A stretch of 64,000 nt of DNA, taken from positions 17,225,718 through 17,289,717 of the forward strand of contig CP099840.1 of the NCBI GenBank assembly GCA_030062745.1, read 5' to 3'. Source of the DNA: Capitulum mitella (Eukaryota > Arthropoda > Thecostraca > Pollicipedomorpha > Pollicipedidae). A program made the translations under genes and the position numbers. The notes under the pieces were generated by a model, which was not told where the DNA came from, searched no databases, and was given only the letters and a program-made list of their open reading frames with translations. Every line of letters begins with the position of its first letter. Position 1 is the first letter of the stretch. Positions 3,195 to 62,887 of this stretch are shown here, piece after piece.

Positions 3195-3279
3195 TTCCAT
3201 CCCACATATTCTGACTGTTCCATCCCACATATTCTGACTGTTGTTTGCTACATATTCTGACTGTTCCATGCTACATATT
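3195..3279. repeat. Short tandem repeat, 23-bp unit
   Basis: The unit begins ttccatcccacatattc and ends tgactg. Copies start at 3195, 3218 and 3241, with a partial fourth at 3264. The first two are identical and the third differs in its first ten bases. It sits just before the large 12-bp minisatellite. Confidence 0.9.
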
Positions 3280-8169: not shown

Positions 8170-9376
8170 TTAAACCCTATTCCCGGCAGGGAGGCTGAAT
8201 CCACCCCCTTCGGGTTTATTCCTTGCCAATTCCAGGATTTTTGACGCAGAGTTCCGAAACTTAGTGACTTCTCCTAGTTATTCTTTCTACGTACTGTGAC
8301 AAAATTTCGTAATTGTGTTTTGCTCATGGACGCAGCCAGGCAACGTTTTTGGGAAGCACCTCAAGCCATTTTTGGCCCTTTTGAAGGTAAAAGGAAAATG
8401 TCTGCCAAACATGGTGTTCTTAAGATGAAACTTAAAACCGTATATGGACGTATAGTTCAATAGTTTGGAAACATACAGATGTAGTTTTGTTCATCTGAGG
8501 TCACTTCACAAGGTCAGATCAAGCTCAAAACTCAGAATTTAGGTTCATCGTAATAATTTTAGAGCTTTTTCAAATGCCGAACCCGGAATATGTATTACGA
8601 AGAAGGGTGCTCTCTACTTGTGAAACAAGTTTCAGCTTGATATCAAGCTGGGTCACGGAGCTATGACCTAGAATGTTAGTTCGCGTACCGTATATCACAA
8701 CAGCAGTAAATTGGAATTTTAGAAGTAGAGTGAATTCAGATGATTGGAAATGTTTTCAAATAATATGAAATGCACACAAGACCATTCCAAATGACTCTAA
8801 TGTCACTAGAGGTCATTTAAGGTCAAAGGTCGTAAGCTGATCCGAAGAAAATGTGACCATGACGGTCCCCCTTTTTCATGTCCCTGGCACCGCCTATGCT
8901 AACATTATACAAACATTATAATATGGCTTGTACTTCTTCAGCATAACATGACTGGCATAAAAACTAAAGAGGTGTTTTCAGGTTTTTTGTTTATTCAGGT
9001 TTTGAAAAGCTAAACCTCGTGTTTTCAAAACCCTGTCAACGTCTATGACTTTTCTAAAAATTTCAATGTATGTACCATCGGCAAAAGTCCTATCCATGAT
9101 CTCTCGATTCATGCCAATTTCCTCAAAATCGGTCCATAAACAACAGAGTTACAACAAGTCCAAAAATACCCCTTTTGGATTTTGCCCCTCCCCGCGGTAT
9201 CCGCCCTTTTCAAAATTCTGAAACCTTTTTACAGAAATGCAGTTTACGTCATGGCAAATCGATTGCCGTTTGTTGAAATGAAATCGGATGTGTAGTTCTC
9301 GAGACCTCGGGGGGGGGGGGCGAATCCGTCCCCTGCCGGGAATCGGCCTAGTCTAGCCCTCCGGGAACAGGGTTAA
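8170..9376 (-). mobile_element. TTAA-flanked piggyBac-type non-autonomous element, copy 1 (oldest)
   Basis: Flanked by TTAA (8170-8173 and 9373-9376) with ends of the form CCCTATTCCCGG / CCGGGAACAGGG. It lies in reverse orientation relative to the copy at 34979 and aligns with it along the whole length, but with many substitutions, so it is the most decayed complete copy. TTAA duplications followed by CCC are the signature of the piggyBac superfamily. There is no transposase frame, so it would have depended on an enzyme supplied elsewhere. A G run at 9309-9320 is the subterminal hairpin region. The half-site array at 8800-8832 has lost two of its four perfect sites. Confidence 0.85.
8800..8832 (+). 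promoter_or_regulatory. Decayed AGGTCA half-site array in element copy 1
   Basis: Half-site positions 8800-8805 (atgtca, mutated), 8810-8815 and 8820-8825 (both perfect AGGTCA) and 8827-8832 (AGGTCG, one mismatch). Same 4-4-1 spacing as the intact arrays in the younger copies. Confidence 0.6.
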
Positions 9377-11429
9377 AGAGAACAACAAAGGACCAGTATG
9401 GGAAGAGGTTCTGAACTACTTTCCTGGCATTAAGTCCTACCAAAGTAAATTAAAAATAAACATAAGTGCTGCTAAACCAAATTACTCAATGGCAACACTT
9501 CGTGTGCTCAGAGACACCTAATAATTTGTTGATATAATCCACGGGCACGCAGGTTGACACAGGGATGTGTAGCACAACCGTTTCGTTGCCCTTCCTTTCT
9601 TTTCGTTGGCTGGGCGTATGAACATTCTGTAAGTTGAATAGTTATTTCAGATGTGAGTTCTTGGTTCGACGCAGATCGCAATGGTCATAGAATCAGTGCA
9701 TACGACAAGATATGGAGACTAGTACCAACATAAGCATAAAGACCTCTGACGAATCAATTTATTCACCACAAACCACACATAAACACAACCCAGCCCAACC
9801 AACTTGTTGAGAAAATGCGACGAATGCTGCATTTTGTACTGGCCGGTAGTGCACCGTCTTCCCCTGAAGCGCGCCACGAAGAGTATAGTCATACTAGTGT
9901 GCCAGACTTGGCACTGAACCGGACAGCTGTTCTGTTTCAAAGGTATGATTGTAAGTAAAACGAATTGTATGTTCGAAGTTCAAAACGTATGCTGGAGACA
10001 AATCAGCGAAAGAAACAAAGATATGGTGCCATAAGCAGACATGATGTTTAATGAAATGTTATCCTAGAAGATCCGAGGATTCTGATGGCATAGACCGTGG
10101 CTAACCTATTCATTTAGTTGCATTGCTCACCGGCAGCGACACCGCACTTCTCGCACGAGCGGATTATCTCAGTGCTACACTGTGTTTCCCGAAATGGTTG
10201 CAAACGAATGACGTCTGTTATGGGCGGCTTTGGTGAATAAACTGAACAGTTCTGGTGCGAATGCGTTCAGAAGCGAATATCATTTTGAGCCCCTATCTCC
10301 TTCGTACGACTCTTGCCGGGGGCCGGGCTGATCAGGAGCATGGTACCTGGGATATCCTGGACCGCAAAGGGTCATGAGAGCCGCGTGCTCCAGCCCGGTA
10401 CGCACGATTCCGTGTGTGGGGGCTGATTCTGCCTCTGCGATCTCCAAAGCTATTAGTTCGGTTTCTTATCGGAAAATAGCGTTCGATAGCCTGTAGCGAG
10501 ATCTATGTAAAAAAGAAATGTTGAAAATCCTGAAGAAGGAGAGGATAGGGGCTTTAGAATGAGGTTGTTTGTTCTACTTTGTGTCATTCTACCGGCAGTT
10601 TATACGCCTATCAAAAATGTTAGGAAGAGGTCGATTTTCAAAATCCATAGGCATGTCCCGGGCACATCAAACGGTGTAAACGTTTTTCGGAAATTGTATG
10701 TATTCCGCGAAATATTTTGAGCCTGAGCAGTTTGTAAAATTTGATTTTTTTGTCATGTATTCTAAATCTGGTGAGATTAGATGTGTAAAGAAAACATTCT
10801 CATGTGTGACACACGCCACATTATGTACACATTGCAATTGCTCAAAGGCGGATCCAGGCACCAGAAAAAAGGTGGAACAATAACTACATGCTGTGTTATT
10901 CTGTGCATCGAGCCATGATTTCTCAGGAATAAGAAGGAACAAAATACCCTTTTCACGTTACCCCGGAGCCGCCCATGATTTCCATTTGCACCGAAATATA
11001 TGGCATTTGATCGTAATATATGTGGAGCTAACACATCGAGTCACACAGATCCAGATGTCCGGTATGCCCATTGAATATGTTATTGAACGAAATATGCACC
11101 ACAAAACCGACGCCTGGAGGTGCCCTGGGTAGTATATGTCAATGAATTATGTATGTAAATTAGGACAAAAATGTCTACTTCACATGTTAACTTTGTTTTA
11201 TTCATACAAGGAGTCGTACATTCTTAGCATATTTCACACGTCAGCTTTGCTTTTTTCATACAAGGTATCATACATTCTTAGCAATAAGAAAATACAGAGA
11301 TCCCTTCTACATGCCCCAGGACCCCCCACTGAGAAACATTTTCCCTAAAGATACTTCAAATTGTGCAGGTTATAAATATTTGGACCGTTTGAGGTGTCTG
11401 TTGCGTAATATAGGACATCAAAATAATTC
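9377..11429. other. Unassigned DNA
   Basis: AT-leaning, with scattered short frames (60-91 codons) on both strands around 9719-9940 and 10667-11348, none recognisable. The part after about 10800 may belong to the decayed TTAA element whose right end is at 11430-11694, but the match is too weak to delimit. Confidence 0.45.
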
Positions 11430-11694
11430 ATGACCGCGTCAAAGTGCGCGATCTCGAGAAAGCTCGATATTCCTCAAACATGCCTCCCAAAAACTTGTCC
11501 TGAAACCACCTCTGGAGAAGTTAGATTTCTGAAATTTTATTACATGTGAAAAACATGTTTAGGAAAAGTCACCAAATGTCGTGCGGTAGCTACTAAAAGC
11601 CCAGGAATGGGGAGTGAAAAACCAGCGTGGGCACATTCTGAACCGGTAGACCAGCAGAATCTACCCCTGTCCTAGCACGGAATAGGGCTAAACA
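11430..11694 (+). mobile_element. Decayed right end of the TTAA element family
   Basis: Segments match the right third of the ~1.2-kb family in order: cctcccaaaaac, then taggaaaagtcaccaa, then a stretch like aagcctggaattggcaagc, ending in cggaatagggctaaa in place of gggaatagggttaa. The terminal TTAA is mutated to CTAA. The left part cannot be traced reliably. This would be the oldest copy in the window. Confidence 0.65.
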
Positions 11695-17122: not shown

Positions 17123-18283
17123 CATTTTCATACTGCGTTGTTGCATATTTCTTTCACTTTACAGGAGAGCCATTGTGTGGATGATCATATGATTTGCAAG
17201 TATCTTTTACTTATGAGTAGGGGTAATGCTGGTACTAAATGGGTTGAGAGGCATGCGTGCGATACAGGGTTTCGATTCTGACCCCAAATTAACCGTGTAA
17301 TGCGTTGATTTATCTCTAGTTAGGTACACCATTTAATGTTCGTATGTGTACTTTGACTCGCTCAAAGATTTAAATGGGAGAATATATTCAGTCTTTTGTA
17401 GCAATATCATATTTGTTTATACTACTACGTAACAGTGTCATACGTAGCAGTCCTACATACTACGTAGCATTTGTATATGCAGCGGAGTTTGTACTACGCA
17501 AAATACAAAGTGTGTCTGGCAGTACGCATTTGCTGTGTAAACGCGGCTAGTGTTTTCTTTCCTTCTTCCCCAGTGGTCGACGGGGGGGGGAATGGAGGGG
17601 ACCTCTGACCGCGGTTAGCATGCGCGGGCTGTAACCATAGAATCACGGTATGGCCTACGAATACCGTTTCCGATACGCTAGGGAAAGCTGTCTCCAGCAC
17701 GCTGTCATGCGTTGTTAGTAGGTAGAAACGCTTTGCCAACCGTAGTCACAACGTTTCCCAAAAGACCGCTTGGAAAGGAGGGACGCGAAAGTTTTGATAT
17801 TCGGGCTTGACGTTTTCCATTTCGGTAATTATCCGGTGCATTATTAATCTCACTACGATATATCGCAATTCGATATTTTCCCATTTGATATAATGTAATT
17901 TGTCGATATTCATCCTTGTCGATGAATTGTCTTCTATATGTTGCGTCCAAAAAATTGCCACTGAATATTTTGTTTGACGTTATTTCCATTTTGATCGTAA
18001 CTCCTTTTCAATAGTCATCCCTGATCGATATTTTGCTTTCCAGTTTTCCTCCAGTTAATTGTTTCATTCTGTCGATATCTATCTTGTCCGATATTTTGCT
18101 CTATATACCTTGATTTCGATATTGTTTGCTGTTCAGTATTCCGCTAAACGATGTTTTATTTTTCAATCGGGATGAGGACAAGACCATGGAATGGGCGTGG
18201 ATGCCGCGACCACAGAAAAAAAAATGTGACCCTACCAGGATCCGAAATGGGGAGGTATCATCACAAGATCGGACATGGGGCGT
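17123..18283. other. Unassigned DNA
   Basis: AT-leaning. Words containing tactacgtagca recur at 17420-17500, and the motif tcgatattttg recurs at 17870-18120, suggesting decayed simple repeats. No recognisable gene. Confidence 0.45.
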
Positions 18284-18620
18284 GACCGTCCCAGGATCAG
18301 ACGCAGGATGTTAACGTACCAGGATCAGGTAGAGGACATTAACGTCCCAGGATCAACGCCCCAGGATCAGACACAGGACGTTAACGTCCCAGAATCATAC
18401 ACAGGACGTTAACGTCCCAGGATCAGGCGCAGGACGTTAACGTCTCAGGATCAGACACAGGACGTTAACGTCCCAGGACCAGACACACGACATTGACGTC
18501 TCAGGATCAGACACAGGACGTTAACGTCCCAGGACCAGACACACGACATTGACGTCTCAGGATCGAACACAGGACGTTAACATCCCAGGATGGGACACGG
18601 GGCGTTAACGTCCCGGAATC
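18284..18620. repeat. 28-bp minisatellite with palindromic core
   Basis: About eleven copies of a 28-bp unit: ggatcagacacaggacgtta followed by acgtccca. Each unit boundary forms the 12-base palindrome gacgttaacgtc. Because 28 is not a multiple of three, a protein-coding role is unlikely. Some units are shortened, for example near 18350. Confidence 0.92.
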
Positions 18621-18965
18621 AGGCATAGGCGCTCTTGCCCCAGAATCAGACTGGTCTGGCGCGCCGTCCCCGGCAGAAGCTCTACCTGCGGCCGGTAGGG
18701 GCTGGCGGTGAGCAGCGGCGCGCTCCGGTGGTAGCAAATGGCCGCGCCGCGGACCGCCCGACACGGTCCAGTTTGCTCAGCGTGACGGGTGGCGGCACCG
18801 AGTGCTGGCGCCGCCGCCGCCGCCGCCGGCGCTGTTTGGTCACCGGTGACAAACAGAGGCAGCCGGCCGGCGCCCCGGCTGGCCGCCGTTCCGGCGCATC
18901 CTCCGTCTGCTGCCGACCTGTGGCTGCCGGCTGTCACAAGTGGCTGTGACAGGTGCTGGCGCAGC
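18621..18965. other. GC-rich patch, possible exon or promoter
   Basis: A strongly GC- and CpG-rich patch with a (GCC)n run at 18808-18828, open on both strands for 85-120 codons (18605-18967 minus is the longest). No domain is recognisable and both strands look equally plausible. A related short phrase, gtgacaggtgctggcg, recurs at 18945 and 19633. Confidence 0.3.
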
Positions 18966-25375: not shown

Positions 25376-26040
25376 ATGACCGTCCCACGGACCTCTCCCA
25401 CCACCACCCACCACCGTCCCACGGGCCTCTCACACCACCGCCCACCACCGTCCCACGGACCTCTCCCACCATCAGCCCATGACCGTCCCACGGAGCTCTC
25501 CTACCACCAGCCGCCACCATCTCAGGGACCTCTCCCACCACCAGCCACCACCGTCTCAGGGACCTCTCCCACCACCAACCGCCACCGTCTCAGGGACCTC
25601 TCCCGCCACCAACCACCACCGTCTCAGGGACCTCTCCCACCACCAACCGCCACCGTCTCAGGGGCCTCTCCCATCACCATTCACCACCTTCCCAAGGGCC
25701 TCTCCCACCACCACCCACCACTGTCACAGGGGCCTCTCCCACTAACACCCATCACCGTCCCAGGGGCCTCTTCCACCATCACCCACCGTCGTCCCAGGAG
25801 CCTCTCCTCCCACCAACCACGACCGTCCCAGGGGCCTCTCCCACCACTACCCACCACCATCCCAGTAACCTCTTCCATTAGCAGCGATCACCATGCAAGG
25901 GGCCTCTCCCACCACCACTTGCCACCGTCCTAAAAAAACTTCCAACCACCACCACCACCACCGTCTCATGGACCCTCCCACCCCACGACCCTCCACCGTC
26001 CGAAAGAGCTCTCCGACCACCAGCCACCACCGTTCTGGAG
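25376..26040. repeat. 34-bp minisatellite open in all three frames
   Basis: About nineteen copies of a 34-bp unit: accgtctcagggacctctcc followed by caccaccaaccgcc. Because 34 is one more than a multiple of three, a single frame cycles through three different reading phases every 102 bases. The 215-codon frame at 25286-25933 therefore reads a 34-residue super-repeat rich in Pro, His, Ser and Thr. Frames on the minus strand (Gly/Trp/Val-rich) are open too. I read this as a satellite rather than a gene. Confidence 0.93.
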
Positions 26041-28123: not shown

Positions 28124-30271
28124 ATGCGTATCGTGCTAGAGAGCCTGTGGCCGCGAGAGAAGGCGCACAGTCCGAGCTCAGTCGCGTCGGCGGCCGACAG
28201 GGACTCCGAGCGGCGCGACCTGTGGCCGCGGCGCACCCGCTGGCTGGGAGCCCTGGCCCGCAACAAGAGCGTGCGCCGCACCTCGCAGCGGCTGCACGAC
28301 TGGCTGAGCAGCGAGAGTCTGTCGGCCGGCAGCGGGGCGCCAGCCCAGCGCCCGCCGCCAGACGCCGGGGACTACGGCTTCCTGGAGTACTACGCGTTCG
28401 GCCGCAGGCGGCCCAGCCGGGACGGCAGGGACTGCAAGGGCGGAACGGCACGTGCCGCTGTCGAGCCGCAGCCGCCGCCCTCTCTGCCGCCGCTGACCAC
28501 GCTCAGTCGGCGCGCCAGCTGCGCCAGTGCGGCCGAATTCTACCCGGCCGTTCTGGGCAGCTGCAGTCTGCCCCGACAGCTGGCGGAGCTCGCCGGCGCC
28601 GAGCAGGTGACCGGCTCGGCGGGCCCGGCCGGCAGCCGCCCGTCTGCGGGACCGGACCGTGGCAGGTCGGGCCGGTCCGACCGCCATCGCCGGGACGGCC
28701 ACGGCCGGCCGGCTCTCGCCGACTGGAGCACGCCCAGCTGCCGCGATCAGCCCGACTGGAGCCGCCTGAGCAGGCATCAAACTCCTGCTGCAGACACCGA
28801 CGGCAGCCTGCCGCCGGCCGAACTAGAGAGCAGCAGCGGCTCTCAGCACGCGGCCAGGGCCGCTCGCCGGCCACCGGTCGACTGTAGTCTGGACCCTCAG
28901 TCCAGCTGCGGAGGTGGCGGCAGCGGCGGCGGTGGCGGCGGCGGCGGGTCCCTGCGGTGTCGCCGTCTGGTTTCGGCCTGGCAGCCGCCCTCAGCTCCAT
29001 CCAGCACTGCCGGCTCTTCAGACGCAATCCCGCCGGCGCCGAGGCGGCCATCCCCGCCGGTCCCCCTGGGCGTTGCCGCTGACTCCGTCCCGTACCCCAG
29101 CTCTCTGCTGAGCGCCACCAGTCTGCCGCCGGCGCCGCCGCGGCCTGCCAGAGCTCTGTTCCGCTCCATGAGCATATCGGGACACCTAAACGATCCGACG
29201 CCGTGCGGTGCATTCACGCGCAACTGCACTGTGCGCCGCTCTCGCAGCCGCGACGATCTCCGTCCGCCGCGACCGAACCATCAGCCGTCCAGGACCGTGT
29301 ACCATCACCCGCCTAATGGCACCTACCGTACGCCGGTGGTGCTAGTGCCGCGCGTGCCGGCGCCCGGACAGGCCGACACGCCGCGGCCGTCCGAGTCCGG
29401 CTCTGAGGAGCGGCGGAGTCGCAGCCTGTGTACTCTGCTGGAGGAGCGGCCGCGCGCTAGCCTCAGTCCGCTGTGGCCACCGGCGCTGCGCCCGGCCGGG
29501 CGGCCGACGCTGCGACCAGGTGGCGAGCCGATGGCCAGGGACCGGCTGCCGGCGGAGACATCGCGGCCGAGCGACCCGCAGGTGTATTACCTTCTGGACG
29601 ACTACCTGAGTCCCATCACGGCCGACCAGGCCTCTAAAGCCTCTGCAGAGGCGGAGCCCGGCTCTGGTGGAGTCGAGAGAGAGGCTGCTCGCAACCGGCC
29701 ACACGTCGCCTCGTTCTCCAGCACCAGCCCGGACAGCCCGGACGCGTGGGCCGAACACGAGGTGCGGTCGGACGGTCCGCCGTGCGGCTCGCTGCGGGAG
29801 GAGAGAGGCTCGGCTGGCCGCGGCCGCCGGGCGGCGCCGGTGGCTCGCGGTGCCAGTCTGGACGACCTCAGCGCGCCGGCTGCGGTCGCCTGGCCGTGCG
29901 GCGGGCCCGAGCCGGCGGCGCCGCGGCGCCCGCTGCGACGGCGTGTCTCGCCCGAGCTGCAGCCGCAGAGGGAGGCGGACCTGATGGCCGTCCTGCGGCG
30001 GCGGCGCGACGTGGAGCGTATCCGCGCCGCCTGCCGAGCTCGGCTGGAGAAGGAGCGGCGCGCGCCACGTCCGCCGCCGGCCGCCGCCAGCTGGCATCAG
30101 GTGAACCCGCTGCCGGCGCCGGCGCCGCGCCGCCAGCCGCTCGGCTGGCCTCACGAGGGCCCGCTCTATCGTGACTGCAGCTGCCAGCGCTGCCTGCCAG
30201 CGCCCACCGAACAGGAGCGGTCGCTCAAACGGCGCTCGTACGCCGACCCCCGACATGCGTCGCTCTTCGAG
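28124..30271 (+). CDS. Large GC-rich coding exon: disordered Arg/Pro/Ser-rich protein, 716 residues, 3' partial
   Basis: The one convincing host gene. The ATG at 28124 sits in GCGCCACCATGC, a near-ideal Kozak context, with an in-frame TAG at 28103-28105 that excludes a longer N-terminus. The frame is open to 30451, but a strong donor (GAG|GTGAGC, cut after 30271, phase 0) and a clear drop in GC after it suggest that the last 59 codons are intron read-through. The product is mostly disordered and rich in Arg, Pro, Ser and Ala. Visible items: basic N-terminal RRTRWLGALARNKSVRRTSQ (about 37-56); aromatic DYGFLEYYAFGRR (about 83-95); poly-Gly (about 262-276); proline motif PPAPPRPAR (class II SH3-type) followed by RSMSIS; SRSRDDL and ASLDDL motifs; QVYYLLDDYLSPI (about 486-498); and a basic predicted helix LMAVLRRRRDVERIR (about 620-634). 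These resemble cytoskeletal or signalling scaffolds, but I do not recognise the family. Later exons are not identified. Confidence 0.8.
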
Positions 30272-30277
30272 GTGAGC
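30272..30277 (+). other. Splice donor ending the coding exon
   Basis: GTGAGC preceded by GAG, fitting the AG|GTRAG consensus. The cut falls between codons (phase 0). Downstream codons lose the GC-rich bias of the exon, and the frame stops at 30449-30451. Confidence 0.6.
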
Positions 30278-30522
30278 AAACCGCCCTCTTTCGTCGGAGT
30301 GTCTGGTCCGCCCATGCTCTGGAATGTTCCTGACTGGAATGCTCGTTCGATGCGACTCGCCCGCTATGCAAAGCACGACTTTCAAAATGTGGACATAGCG
30401 AAACAAAGAGCACAGACAGTGATCAACATGGTCCGGATTCATAACTTATAGGAAATCACAAATCTTCAAACAATATCACACTACTAAATGAAGTTATTGT
30501 ATTAACATATTCACAAACAAAC

Positions 30523-34978: not shown

Positions 34979-36194
34979 TTAACCCTATTCCCGGAGGGCT
35001 AGACGATATGGCCGATTCCCGGCAGGGGGGGGCGGATTCGGCCCCCCCTGAGATCTCGAGAACTACTTATCCGATTTCATCGCAACAAACGGCAATCGAT
35101 TTGCCGTGACGTGAACTACATTTTTATAAAAAGAAATTTTCAAAATTTTGAAATTTGTGGATACAGGGGGGCAAAAATATCAAAATGGGGGGTACTTTTT
35201 GACTTCTTATAACTCCGGTGTTTATGGACCGATTTCGATGAAACTGGCATCAATCGAGAGATTATGGATAGGGCTTTTACCATGGGTATGCAAATTTGAA
35301 ATTTTGAGAAAATTCATGGGCGTTCACAGGGTTTGAAAAATAGGGGGATTAGTTTTCTAATAACTGAATGAACAAAAGAGGCCAAAACACTTTTTTAGCT
35401 TCTGCTAGTCATGTTGTGCTAAAGAAGTACAAATCGCATTACAATGTTTGTATAGTGTCAGCATAGGCGGTGCCAGGGACATAAAAAAGGGGGAGCTGTC
35501 ATGGTCACACGTTCTTCAGATCAACTTGTGACCTTTGACCTTAAATGACCTCCAGTGACCTTGGGGTCACCTGGAATGATGTCGTGTGCATTCAATATTA
35601 TCTGTAAACGTTTTTAATCGATTGAATTCACTCTATTCCAAAAATTCATTTTATGGCTTTTGCGATATAGGGTACGCGCACTGACATTTTAGGTCATAGC
35701 TCGGTGACCCGACCTGATATCAAGCTGAAACTTGGTACACAAGTACAGGGCACCTTTCTACGTCATATATATTCCGGGTTTGGCATTTGAAAAAACGGTG
35801 CCGAAATTCTAGCGAAAAAACAAATTTTGACTTTTGACCTTGACCTGACCTTGTAAAGTGACCTCAGATAAACAAAATTACATATGCACATTGCCCAACT
35901 ATTTAGCTATACATTCATGTAAAGTTTTAAGTTTTATCTTAAAAACTCTGTTTTTGGCAGACATTTTCCTTTTACCCTCAACATGGCCAAAAATGACCTG
36001 AGGTGCCTCCCAAAAACGTTGCCTGGCTCCGCCCCTGAGCAAAATAGAATTTCGAAATTTTGTCATGGCGCGTAGAAGGAATAGCTAGGAAAAGTGACCA
36101 AGTTTCGTGAAGCTGCGTTAAAAAGCCTGGAATTGGCAAGCAAAAAACCTGAGGGGGGGCGGATTTGGCCCCCCCCTGCCTGGAATAGGGTTAA
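34979..36194 (+). mobile_element. TTAA-flanked piggyBac-type non-autonomous element, copy 2
   Basis: TTAA at 34979-34982 and 36191-36194. The ends read TTAACCCTATTCCCGG on the left and TGGAATAGGGTTAA on the right. The left end repeats the CGATTCCCGGCAGGGGG motif about 35 bases inside. Both ends contain a hairpin of G runs and C runs around ggattcgg. No transposase is encoded. A 62-codon frame (35148-35336) also appears in copies 3 and 4 but accumulates replacement changes, so it need not be a gene. Nearly identical by eye to copy 3, hence young. It carries at least nine TGACCT/AGGTCA half-sites. Confidence 0.92.
35529..35561 (-). promoter_or_regulatory. DR1-DR4-DR4 nuclear-receptor half-site array (copy 2)
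   Basis: Four perfect TGACCT words at 35529-35534, 35536-35541, 35546-35551 and 35556-35561, with spacers 1, 4 and 4. On the minus strand this reads AGGTCA x4 with spacing 4, 4, 1; the last pair is the canonical DR1 AGGTCAAAGGTCA. A second cluster lies at 35835-35864. Confidence 0.7.
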
Positions 36195-42530: not shown

Positions 42531-43110
42531 CGCCTAATGCCCACGGTTTTCCGCTGCTGCCCCATCATCTAACTTCTTTGCTTGATAGACTTCAGAGTCA
42601 AGAATCCCGTGAAGTTAGGCCAGCACGAAGTTCTTTAGCCCTCCGTGATGTGGTTTTCCAGGCACGTACTGTTTTAGCTTGCTTTTTCCAGTAAATGAAA
42701 TAATCTGTTTATCTTTGGAGACCTGCCGAGGCCTTGGCAGTTTCAAACAACCACTTTTCACGGTCTCCACCAATTTGTGGAATTTCCTAATTCGGCCTTC
42801 CTTCGTCAGCTCCTCCGACATATCATTGTCATTAACTACTTTCAAGTGTGATCTTATGTGGTGAAAGTGATCCCGACTGAACGCGTCAGCGGTGGCGGCA
42901 ATACGCGTTTGTGGTGTTCAGTACATACGTACCCGGAGAAGCCTAGGGGCCGACATCGGTTAGCTTGCTCCAAAGAACTTCATGCACTCATCGTCCCTCA
43001 GCACAATTCTTTCGCCTGTTTTCATAACAGCGCTCTGGTTTGATCGAATTGCTTTGTCCCAGTATATCTGGGAAGTGATGAAAATGTCCTGATATTCGAG
43101 AGTTTTTCAG
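42530..43110 (-). pseudogene. piggyBac transposase fossil
   Basis: Minus-strand pieces in order: KTGERIVLRDDECMKFFGAS (near 43050, the 'EIxxFxGxxxxMG' region), then FSRDHFHHIRSHLKVVNDND (42895-42830, the 'MSRxRFxxIxxxLHFxDN' region), then VSKDKQIISFTGKSKLKQYV followed by PGKPHHGGLK (42725-42640, the 'V-D-E-QMIPFKGRxxxKQYMPxKPxKxGxK' region holding the first catalytic Asp), and GILDSEVYQAKK in a shifted frame (42590-42555). Order and spacing fit the piggyBac DDE domain. Stops and frameshifts make it inactive, and the C-terminal Cys-rich part is missing. It could represent the kind of enzyme that moved the TTAA-flanked elements here. Confidence 0.82.
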
Positions 43111-43665: not shown

Positions 43666-44554
43666 TTAACCCGCGCACGACCGTCGGTCCGTTTCGAACA
43701 CGGCGACTGGGCGGGGGCAGTTGGCCGCCCCTCACTCTAACTCACGAACGGTGGATCGCACAATAAAAATAAGCATACCGTTGGAAAGCTTGTGACGAGT
43801 AGAGCTCGAAACTGGTCTCATTTTTAGTTTTAGATAATATGTAAGCAATTTACGCCCTATATATGTTTTCTCATAGCCGACTGCATGAGACCAAGAAATG
43901 GCCTGGATCTCAAGGGCTGTGACTAAAAACGCATAGGTAAAAGCACCAGCGCACAAGTAAAGGTCCGCGGATGCCGGTACACGTCTAATTTCTCAGATTT
44001 GTTCAATATGTACGCCGAAACGTTGAGTTAAAAACACGGCAATTCTCCCGCCAGCTGTAGGCGTGCGCTGCTGCCGTATGCGGCCACAAATTGATGGGAA
44101 CTAATTTTAGCGTTCCTTTATTTTCGCGAAAAAGACGATCTATGTAAATTTCATTGATCTTAGTGGTTCCTGTGATGGTTTTTCATGCTTAAATTTTTGA
44201 AACATTCATTAATTACCAATCTACACAATTGGCGGAACTTTATTCGCGAGAGCCTGTTTATTTCCAAAATATGCTAGTTTTCTAACTTTTTGAGGTTCCT
44301 GGTCTTACGGCTGTGCAAGCTAGTTCTGCCATTTTCTACCCATTCTGAGTAAGTCATCGCCGATTTTTACGGTGGTACATTTTGGCTCACTACAGTTATT
44401 CGTGGCCTGACCTCAGGCCAATGTCTGGAAGTCATTGATGCTTTTCCCAATGGCAGTAACTATATGTCTGCTCACTCCACACTAAAAATGTTATGAAATA
44501 TTCCGTGAATTTCCGAAAAAAACGACGACATGTCCCAAAAATGGGCTTGACCTT

Positions 44555-44567
44555 AGGTCAATGACCC
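44555..44567 (+). promoter_or_regulatory. Ecdysone-response-element-like inverted repeat (IR1)
   Basis: AGGTCAATGACCC matches every position of the EcR-USP consensus RGKTCANTGAMCY. It lies within the second TTAA element. Binding is not shown by the sequence. Confidence 0.5.
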
Positions 44568-44701
44568 GGAAAATTCCGAAACATCTGAGATATCATATTT
44601 GTTGCATCTATCACGATCACTAATCCCTGAAAGTGTTATTGAGATATCTTGTTTTGCGAAAAAGTTACAGGGCGCTAAACATTTTTTGACATAGATCTGT
44701 T

Positions 44702-44742
44702 TGACCTGACCTAGGTCAGGCACCTGACCTGACCTGAGGTCA
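44702..44742. promoter_or_regulatory. Cluster of everted AGGTCA half-sites
   Basis: TGACCTAGGTCA at 44707-44718 (spacer 0) and TGACCTGAGGTCA at 44730-44742 (spacer 1), plus overlapping TGACCT words at 44702 and 44725. Confidence 0.5.
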
Positions 44743-44884
44743 AAATTCCGGCACGAGATGTAAAATATATGAAGCAAAAGGTACACAAAGTTTCGTGACT
44801 CTGTGTTAGTTCGTTCTCTCGCAATCCCAGAAAACCTCGGGGGGGGGGGCAGTCAACTGCTCCCCCCAGGCGGGGACGGGTTAA

Positions 44885-45730: not shown

Positions 45731-46944
45731 TTAACCCTATTCCCGGAGGGCCAGACGGTATGGTCGATTCCCGGCAGGGGGGGGGGGCGGATTCGGCCCC
45801 CCCCTGAGATCTCGAGAACTACTTATCCGATTTCATCGCAACAAACGGCAATCGATTTGCCGTGACGTGAACTACATTTTTATAAAAAGAAATTTTCGGA
45901 ATTTTGAAATTTGTGGATACAGGGGGCAAAAATGTCAAAATGGGGGGTACTTTTTGACTTCTTATAACTCCGTTGTTTATGGACCGATTTCGATGAAACT
46001 GGCATCAATCGAGAGATTATGGATAGGGCTTTTACCATGGGTATGCAAATTTGAAATTTTGAGAAAATTCATGGGCGTTTACAGGGTTTCAAAAATAGGG
46101 GGATTAGTTTCCAATAACGGAATGAGCAAAAGAGGCCAAAACACTTTTTTAGCTTCTGCTTGTCATGTTATGCTAAAGAAGTACAAATCGCATTACAATG
46201 TTTGTATAATGTTAGCATAGGCGGTGCCAGGGACATAAAAAAGGGGAACTGTCATGGTCACACGTTTCTCAGATCAACTTGTGACCTTTGACCTTAAATG
46301 ACCTCCAGTGACCTTGGGGTCACCTGGAATGATGTCGTGTGCATTCAGTATTATCTGTAAACGTTTTTAATCGATTAAATTCACTCTATTCCAAAAAATC
46401 ATTTTTTGGCTTTTGCGATATAGGGTACGTGCACTGACATTTTAGGTCATAGCTCCGTGACCTGACCTGATATCAAGCTGAAACTTGGTACACAAGTAGA
46501 GGGCATTTTTCTACGTCATATGTATTCCGGGTTTGGCATTTGAAAAAACGGCGCCGAAATTATTGCGAAAAAACAAATTTTGACTTTTGACCTTGACCTG
46601 ACCTTGTAAAGTGACCTCAGATAAACAAAATTACGTATGCACATTGCCCAACTATTTAGCTATATATTCATATAAAGTTTTAAGTTCTATCTTAAAAACT
46701 CTGTTTTTAGCAGACATTTTCTTTTACCCTCAACATGGCCAAAAATGACCTGAGGTGCCTCCCAAAAACGTTGCCTGGCTCCGCCCCTGAGCAAAATAGA
46801 ATTTCGAAATTTTGTCACGGTGCGTAGAAGGAATAGCTAGGAAAAGTCACCAAGTTTCGTGAAGCTGCGTCAAAAAGCCTGGAATTGGCAAGCAAAAAAC
46901 CCGAGGGGGGGCGGATTCCGCCCCCCTGCCGGGAATAGGGTTAA
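45731..46944 (+). mobile_element. TTAA-flanked piggyBac-type non-autonomous element, copy 3
   Basis: TTAA at 45731-45734 and 46941-46944. Nearly identical to copy 2 in the same orientation, about 10.7 kb away. The G run at the left subterminal hairpin is longer (45778-45787). The shared frame is 117 codons here (45867-46220) because one base differs from copy 2, where a stop shortens it. It carries AGGTCA(8)TGACCT at 46444-46463 as well as the four-site array. Confidence 0.92.
46282..46314 (-). promoter_or_regulatory. DR1-DR4-DR4 nuclear-receptor half-site array (copy 3)
   Basis: TGACCT at 46282-46287, 46289-46294, 46299-46304 and 46309-46314, spacing 1, 4, 4, as in copy 2. Confidence 0.7.
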
Positions 46945-61673: not shown

Positions 61674-62887
61674 TTAACCCTATTCCCGGCAGGGGGGCGG
61701 AATCTGCCCCCACTCGGGTTTTTTGCTTGCCAATTCCAGGCTTTTTAACGCAGCTTCACGAAACTTGGTCACTTTTCCTAGCTATTCTTTCTACGTGCTG
61801 TGACAAAATTTCAAAATTCTTTTTTGCCCAGGGGCGGAGCCAGGCAACGTTTTTGGAAGGCACCTCATGCTATTTTTGGCCATGTTCAGGGTAAAAGGAA
61901 AATGTCTGCCAAAAACAGAGTTTTTAAGATAGAACTTAAAACTTTATATGGATGTATAGCTAAATAGTTGGGCAATGTACAGATATAATTTTGTTTATCT
62001 GAGGTCATTTTACAAGTTCAGGTCAAGGTCAAAAGTCAAAATTTGTTTTTTTGCTATAATTTTGGCGCAATTTTTTAAAATGCCAAACCCGAAATATATA
62101 TGACGTAGAAGGGTGCCTTCTACTTGTGTAACAAGTTTCAGCTTGATATCAGGTTGGGTCACGGAGATATGACCTAAAATGTCAGTGCGCGCGCCCTATA
62201 TCGCAATAGCCATAAAATGAAATTTTTGAAATAGAGTGAATCCAAATGATTGAAAACGTTTACAGATAATATTAAATGCGCACGAGATCATCCCAAGTGA
62301 CTCCAAGGTCACTGGAGGTCATTTAAGGTCAAAGGTCACAAATTGATCTGAGAAACGTGTGACCGTGACAGTTCCCCCTTTTTCATATCCCTGGCACCGC
62401 CTATGCTAACATCATACAAACATTGTAATGCGATTTGTACTTCTTTAGTATAACATGACTAGCAGAAGCCAAAAAAGTGTGTTTGCCTCTTTTTTCATTC
62501 AGTTGTTAGAAAACTAATCCTTCTATTTTTGAAACCCTGTGAACGCCCATGAATTTTCTCAAAATTTCAGATTTGTGGGCCCATGGTAAAAGCCCTATCC
62601 ATAATCTCTCGATTGATGCCAGTTTCATCGAAATCGGTCGATAAACAACGAAGTTATAAAAAGTCCAAAAGTACCCCCATTTTGACGTTTTTGCCCCCCT
62701 GTATCCACAAATTTCAAAATTTTGAAAATTTCTTTTTAGAAAAATGTAGTTCACGTCACGGCGAGTCGATTGCCGTTTGTTGCGATGAAATCGGATATGT
62801 AGTTCTCGAGATCTCAGGGGGGGGGCCGAATCCGCCCCCCCTGCCGGGAATCGACCATACCGTCTAGCCCTCCGGGAATAGGGTTAA
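61674..62887 (-). mobile_element. TTAA-flanked piggyBac-type non-autonomous element, copy 4
   Basis: TTAA at 61674-61677 and 62884-62887, in reverse orientation to copies 2 and 3. It aligns with them over the whole length, with more differences than those two show to each other, so it is intermediate in age between them and copy 1. The shared frame is on the minus strand (62506-62754, 82 codons) with many replacement differences. The G/C-run hairpins are kept at both ends. Confidence 0.92.
62306..62338 (+). promoter_or_regulatory. DR4-DR4-DR1 nuclear-receptor half-site array (copy 4)
   Basis: AGGTCA at 62306-62311, 62316-62321, 62326-62331 and 62333-62338, all perfect, with spacers of 4, 4 and 1 bases. 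Kept intact although the rest of this copy has diverged from copies 2 and 3. Confidence 0.7.

Follow-up and report, generated by a model that had tools for sequence, protein, structure and literature searches.

A piggyBac-Like, Non-Autonomous Transposon Family That Probably Disperses DR1 and DR4 Nuclear-Receptor Half-Sites through the Capitulum mitella Genome

Introduction

The word AGGTCA and its direct repeats DR1 and DR4 are established binding layouts of nuclear receptors, and Alu, the repeat family with which we compare the elements described here, is a retrotransposon. Alu holds 90% of the human consensus DR2 retinoic-acid response elements; CpG deamination is reported to be largely responsible for these sites, and ChIP showed several copies to be bound by receptor (Laperriere et al. 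2007, PMC1785376). HNF4-alpha binding sequences are described in Alu and, in part, in Tigger repeats (Bolotin et al. 2011, PMC3252374). A literature search for transposon families that carry receptor sites returned only the Alu cases as close parallels, most subscription papers lying outside its scope.

Here we examine a family of 1.2-kb elements, family A, found in a 64-kb window (the whole stretch of DNA analyzed) of the Capitulum mitella genome. As with Alu and DR2, one repeat family supplies most copies of a direct-repeat receptor motif, and as in the case of HNF4-alpha and Alu, sites of the HNF4 type are spread by repeats. Unlike the Alu DR2, family A has the marks of a DNA transposon, the full array of half-sites is present in its consensus, the layouts concerned are DR1 and DR4, and the case is known from sequence alone, whereas the HNF4-alpha study draws on protein binding microarrays, ChIP, and reporters (Bolotin et al. 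2011). That repeat families spread receptor motifs is known already, and family A is another such case; its best reading, by analogy, would be as the counterpart, among DNA transposons, of primate Alu. One DNA-transposon family supplies about nine tenths of the sampled perfect DR1 sites, which makes the natural case a large one. Family A would strongly color any count of the motif, or any receptor ChIP, in the species, and with its thousands of copies of varied age one could test directly the frequency with which scattered motifs become regulatory sites.

Structure of the Element

The window holds four copies of family A, three of them better preserved (E2, E3, and E4) and one old (E1). All four run from TTAA to TTAA and have inverted CCCTATTCCCGG ends, with single changes in E1 and E2 (Table 1). 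Forty-nine copies yield a consensus of 1,218 bases; TTAA is found at the left end in 43 of those copies and at the right end in 44. Inside the 16-base ends, bases 6-42 on the left match the inverted bases 34-70 on the right at 92%, an inverted match of 37 bases. The initial annotation took the approximately 1.2-kb copies to be transposons of one family in which the array is fixed, and this reading is supported.

Table 1. Features of the window, with positions counted from its first base
Feature	Position	Strand	Remarks
E1, old family A copy, 1207 b	8170..9376	+	81-82% identical to other three
Array in E1	8800..8832	+	Half-sites 1 (ATGTCA) and 4 (AGGTCG) mutated
Family B, distant family A relative at left and right parts	10389..11691 (approximate)	-	TTAGCCCTATTCC at left
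E2, full-length family A copy, 1216 b	34979..36194	-	
Array in E2	35529..35561	-	Four perfect half-sites
Cluster 1 in E2	35835..35864	-	Four more AGGTCA, spacings 7, -1, 0, then AAAGTCA
Decayed piggyBac transposase fragment	42582..43013	-	PF13843, E 2.9e-11, 3 stops; adjoins family C; G000:C2:17268299-17268730
Family C, TTAA-flanked element	43666..44884	-	9 AGGTCA/TGACCT words, layout unlike family A
E3, full-length family A copy, 1214 b	45731..46944	-	
Array in E3	46282..46314	-	Four perfect half-sites
E4, full-length family A copy, 1214 b	61674..62887	+	TTAA to TTAA; TTAACCCTATTCCCGG inverted at both ends
Array in E4	62306..62338	+	AGGTCA-CTGG-AGGTCA-TTTA-AGGTCA-A-AGGTCA; spacings 4-4-1 (DR4-DR4-DR1), 33 bp

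The three open reading frames tested for a family A protein gave no Pfam match, none of seven open reading frames from the window matched Pfam, and Rfam returned nothing at gathering scores. In being non-coding, high in copy number, and uniform in length, family A is MITE-like; most MITEs are shorter than its 1.2 kb. Two marks of the piggyBac superfamily, the TTAA target duplication and terminal inverted repeats beginning CCC, are both present, and the likeness to that superfamily and its non-autonomous derivatives (for example Pokey in Daphnia, PMC3849761) extends to TTAA at both ends, short inverted repeats starting with CCC, and DDE transposases in the genome. Family A thus bears the marks of a piggyBac-type, non-autonomous, MITE-like DNA transposon of 1.2 kb that is without a recognized gene.

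The arrays of E2 and E3, read on the minus strand, are the same 33 letters as the array of E4, and E1 retains the layout of E4 with two mutated words and one spacer change. The description of a DR4-DR4-DR1 array of four perfect AGGTCA words in the three better-preserved copies, kept as a layout with two sites mutated (the first and fourth words) in the oldest, accordingly holds letter for letter; the further half-sites that had been reported in E2 (cluster 1) are present as well, and the consensus has them at identical spacings. In consensus coordinates the array occupies positions 635-667 and cluster 1 positions 331-360. The consensus of 49 copies carries nine AGGTCA words, all on one strand, and its right half beyond the array contains neither AGGTCA nor TGACCT.

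This richness is not due to chance, since the consensus of the three better-preserved copies has nine AGGTCA on one strand together with one TGACCT, and 1000 dinucleotide shuffles reach at most 4 (mean 0.43). At the scale of the window, AGGTCAN4AGGTCA with up to two mismatches occurs 24 times, compared with a mean of 4.27 and a largest value of 11 in 100 shuffles. The whole window is rich in AGGTCA (51 words versus a mean of 27 in 50 shuffles), partly through other repeats. The array pattern had no match in viral contigs.

Abundance and Dispersal

The genome searched comprises 477 Mb in 16 contigs. Allowing up to three mismatches, the 33-mer array occurs 9,516 times genome-wide (4,702 + 4,814), while the reversed pattern does not occur at all, and three other blocks of family A gave 6,844 (a 31-mer), 9,621 (a 30-mer), and 10,183 (a 33-mer with one CpG). 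Family A therefore has on the order of ten thousand recognizable copies, and the similarity of the block counts to the array count indicates that the array tracks the element. Perfect copies on contig C1 number 5.9 per Mb for the array and 4.3, 5.4, and 7.3 for the other blocks. Among 50 loci picked by a 31-mer outside the array, 49 had a copy that aligned over more than 1,000 bases, the copy at L009 being truncated. At L015 and L016, a pair of family A copies lie some 470 bases from each other and point in opposite directions.

A BLAST search with E1 gave 10,950 first-look candidates in the genome, 40 of which were scored. The 41 scored matches were E1 itself, 39 sequences at 80-82% identity, and one 50-base piece at 90%. 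We considered whether E1 belongs to a separate, close subfamily and rejected the idea, the 39 best full or near-full matches being only 80-82% identical.

The perfect DR1, AGGTCAAAGGTCA, occurs 7,332 times in the genome (3,625 + 3,707), against 55 occurrences of the reversed pattern. Ninety of the first 100 perfect DR1 listed lie inside family A (Wilson interval 83-94%), a sample that is not random, all of it coming from contig C1 up to 9.58 Mb. Exact 33-mer arrays account for 52 of this sample, of which eight array-chosen loci (L001-L008) were read and proved in every case to be full elements; among the remaining 48, a further 38 are in family A. A threshold had flagged 39 of these 48 loci and reading of the rows kept 38; in the locus dropped, L096, one end of an element is close by but does not enclose the DR1. 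At two of the 38 (L098 and L112) the DR1 sits at cluster 1 instead of the array, and nine of the 48 fetched loci had no family A match. Three of these nine (L088, L113, and L123) have one other repeat in common, so that repeat also carries DR1.

A consensus DR motif is, then, both present in family A and dispersed by it, and by extrapolation some 6,600 perfect DR1 genome-wide would lie in family A. The initial annotation had proposed that the elements scatter hormone-responsive sites through this genome; as a statement about receptor-type sequence it stands, on 9,516 arrays within three mismatches, 7,332 perfect DR1, and the placing of 90 of the first 100 listed sites in family A.

Nuclear Receptors in the Same Genome

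The genome also encodes receptors whose DNA-binding domains are of a suitable kind. The nuclear-receptor DNA-binding domain (zf-C4) has 49 matches, many of them partial. For five of these domains the best structure matches were NR5A2 (two), NR2C2 (two), and ROR-gamma (one), with none singled out as HNF4, RXR, or EcR, and NR5A-like receptor domains are encoded by two exons. Two words of the element, CCAAGGTCA and TCAAGGTCA, fit the extended half-site of FTZ-F1/SF-1.

Conservation of the Array

The initial annotation named greater conservation of the array than of its flanks as support for its proposal, and the four copies in the window offer a hint of it. Variable array columns number 0 of 33 in three copies (p 0.07) and 3 of 33 in all four (p 0.06); E1 alone differs at 3 of 33 array positions as against 213 of 1,200 over all; and the longest run invariant in the four copies, 23 bp, falls within the array. 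For the half-sites alone, Fisher tests in the window copies gave p 0.09 and 0.16.

The larger sample consists of 49 copies chosen by an exact 31-mer located about 240 bases beyond the array, a choice that favors young copies; the 31-mer itself was omitted from the tests. Mismatch to the consensus was 2.30% in the array, 2.39% in its half-sites, and 2.05% in its spacers, compared with 2.68% in other AGGTCA/TGACCT words and 3.51% in the rest at non-CpG columns (3.69% over all columns). Of 1,123 windows of 33 columns, 190 had a mismatch no higher than that of the array (255 with CpG columns omitted); when the half-site mask was moved along the element, 322 of its 1,122 placements were at least as low, and for all half-sites taken together 244 of 1,217 circular shifts were. 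A similar picture comes from the only five old copies to extend into the array, which are 65-81% identical and of which L031 covers it only in part. At non-CpG positions, 27 of 114 half-site bases have changed (23.7%) and 13 of 43 spacer bases, compared with 568 of 2,660 (21.4%) in the rest (p 0.56 for half-sites, p 0.23 for the array). The genome-wide array count, finally, lies above that of one other block (6,844, the 31-mer) and below those of the other two (9,621 and 10,183).

Better keeping of the array than of the element is therefore a hint from the window that was not upheld by the 49 copies, by the five old copies, or by two of the three other blocks. The half-sites are no better kept than the spacers between them, and they mutate roughly as fast as the remainder of the element, which is the mutational part of what the initial annotation had named as telling against its proposal. 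The array looks like any ordinary stretch of the element, if a somewhat better kept one, and its decay is neutral-like.

These data bear directly on the idea that the host has recruited many copies as hormone-response elements of its genes and that selection acts on them at those places. Thousands of copies with perfect DR1 and DR4, in a genome that encodes receptors, are what such co-option would draw upon. Of the 49 copies, 29 retain all four half-sites intact, 15 retain three, and 5 retain two, and the exact 33-mer is present in 26. When the mask is shifted to other parts of the element, the number of intact copies averages 23.0 of 49, and it is 29 or more at 259 of 1,122 placements (at 108 of 428 that are CpG-free). 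Retention of the array is thus within the range found for the mask elsewhere, and we consider large-scale co-option very unlikely.

Selection might act instead on the transposing lineage, and not on single insertions, if the array were a cis-acting part that the transposon needs, for example because a germ-line receptor of the NR5/FTZ-F1 type opens the chromatin and so favors mobilization. The nine AGGTCA words kept on one strand in the 49-copy consensus are in keeping with such a role, as are the NR5A-like domains and the fit of CCAAGGTCA and TCAAGGTCA to the FTZ-F1/SF-1 motif; set against it is the lack of excess conservation in both young and old copies. A weak constraint on the transposing lineage is still compatible with the difference between 2.3% in the array and 3.5% in the rest, with the 23-bp run, and with the p values of 0.06 and 0.07 in the window. 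Taking this evidence with that from the other repeats considered below, we judge a required cis-acting part unlikely.

In our view it is probable that the array belongs, as a fixed internal component, to a piggyBac-like, non-autonomous transposon that disperses DR1 and DR4 passively and on a large scale, with neutral-like decay thereafter. Each insertion carries two clusters of AGGTCA, the array contributing one perfect DR1 and two DR4; on this reading the motif is abundant through copying of the element and not through selection at each site, and once inserted the half-sites decay about as fast as everything around them. Mobilization would presumably be of the piggyBac type, by a transposase supplied in trans. 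Receptors that recognize DR1 or DR4 may be able to bind some copies, which would, by analogy with Alu, offer usable regulatory sites by chance.

Autonomous piggyBac Elements

The piggyBac transposase family (PF13843) has no fewer than 118 matches in the genome, some with open frames, and we read 28 loci that cover 33 of these matches. At 24 of the 28, at least one TTAA/CCC end of either of two types was found, CCCATTAACGCCCAG or CCC(T/A)TTAGTGCCCA; neither type was found at L063, L064, L077, or L086. The ends of family A, CCCTATTCCCGG, differ from both types, and none of the 28 loci has a transposase bounded by family A ends. Copies of family A do occur in the flanks of L067, L074, and L085, with a weaker match in L076. 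At L067 (G000:C14, approximately 7030547-7031656), two pieces of an old family A copy are separated by a piggyBac element that measures about 2.7 kb and has a 613-amino-acid open frame, an arrangement that provides a relative date.

In 16 piggyBac elements both ends could be located by pattern, and none of the 16 has a DR1 or DR4 pair between its ends. Where such pairs occur at piggyBac loci they are in the flanks only or, at L086, outside the transposase, the ends there not having been found. L063, whose ends were likewise not found, has three single AGGTCA words no more than 76 bases upstream of its transposase, and these are not at DR1 or DR4 spacing. We had entertained inheritance of the array from autonomous piggyBac elements; for those with both ends located this is rejected, the array being absent from all 16. 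The same absence counts against a cis-acting requirement for the array.

It also bears on the plainer alternative raised in the initial annotation, that the AGGTCA words are internal repeats bound by the transposase. Repeated short words in DNA transposons are often transposase sites, and such sites would be expected to be subterminal at both ends. Transposase binding is unlikely because the array lies in the middle of the element and on one side only, with its words on one strand; no such array was found between the located ends of the 16 piggyBac elements. The alternative is weakened on both counts, and we regard it as extremely improbable.

Half-Sites in Other Repeats

Family B is related to family A (nhmmer E 2.7e-16 and 7.1e-10) and contains no AGGTCA, a further point against the array as a part that such transposons need. 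Repeats C and F speak on the other side, each having AGGTCA clusters in layouts of its own. The nine half-sites of family C exceed the number found in simulations, which averaged 0.46 and never passed 4, and related copies were found at L009, L030, L036, and L061. A tight cluster of mixed direct and inverted AGGTCA lies about 150 bases from the left end of family C. Repeat F (L002:2161-2943 and L076) has nine half-sites in a stretch of 783 bases and is built on a tandem unit of about 150 bases, with only a TTAA-type right end seen; its site in L002, which is the location of L010, adjoins a family A copy.

More generally, AGGTCA is common in several repeats of this genome. Outside family A and the piggyBac interiors, 183 AGGTCA/TGACCT words were counted in 143.5 kb of fetched sequence in which some loci overlap and a few places are counted twice, as against 115 expected from shorter words. 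The clusters in C and F are not explained by passive carriage of one accidental motif. We have asked whether A and C (and F) might have gained or kept receptor sites repeatedly because binding by a germ-line receptor helps them to move. If this were true, the hormone-receptor system of the host would have an entire class of DNA transposons linked to it. The left ends of families A and C are weakly alike (E 1.4e-4), so their clusters need not have arisen independently, and we think repeated gain or retention of this kind improbable. Passive dispersal by family A is the reading we retain for the array itself.

Two other features of the window may be recorded. Tandem arrays begin at position 3248 (a 12-base unit) and occupy 25408-26001 (34) and 18202-18653 (28). 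On the plus strand, positions 28124-30451 hold an open frame of 775 amino acids that has no Pfam match, appears by eye to be rich in proline and arginine, and is possibly a host exon.
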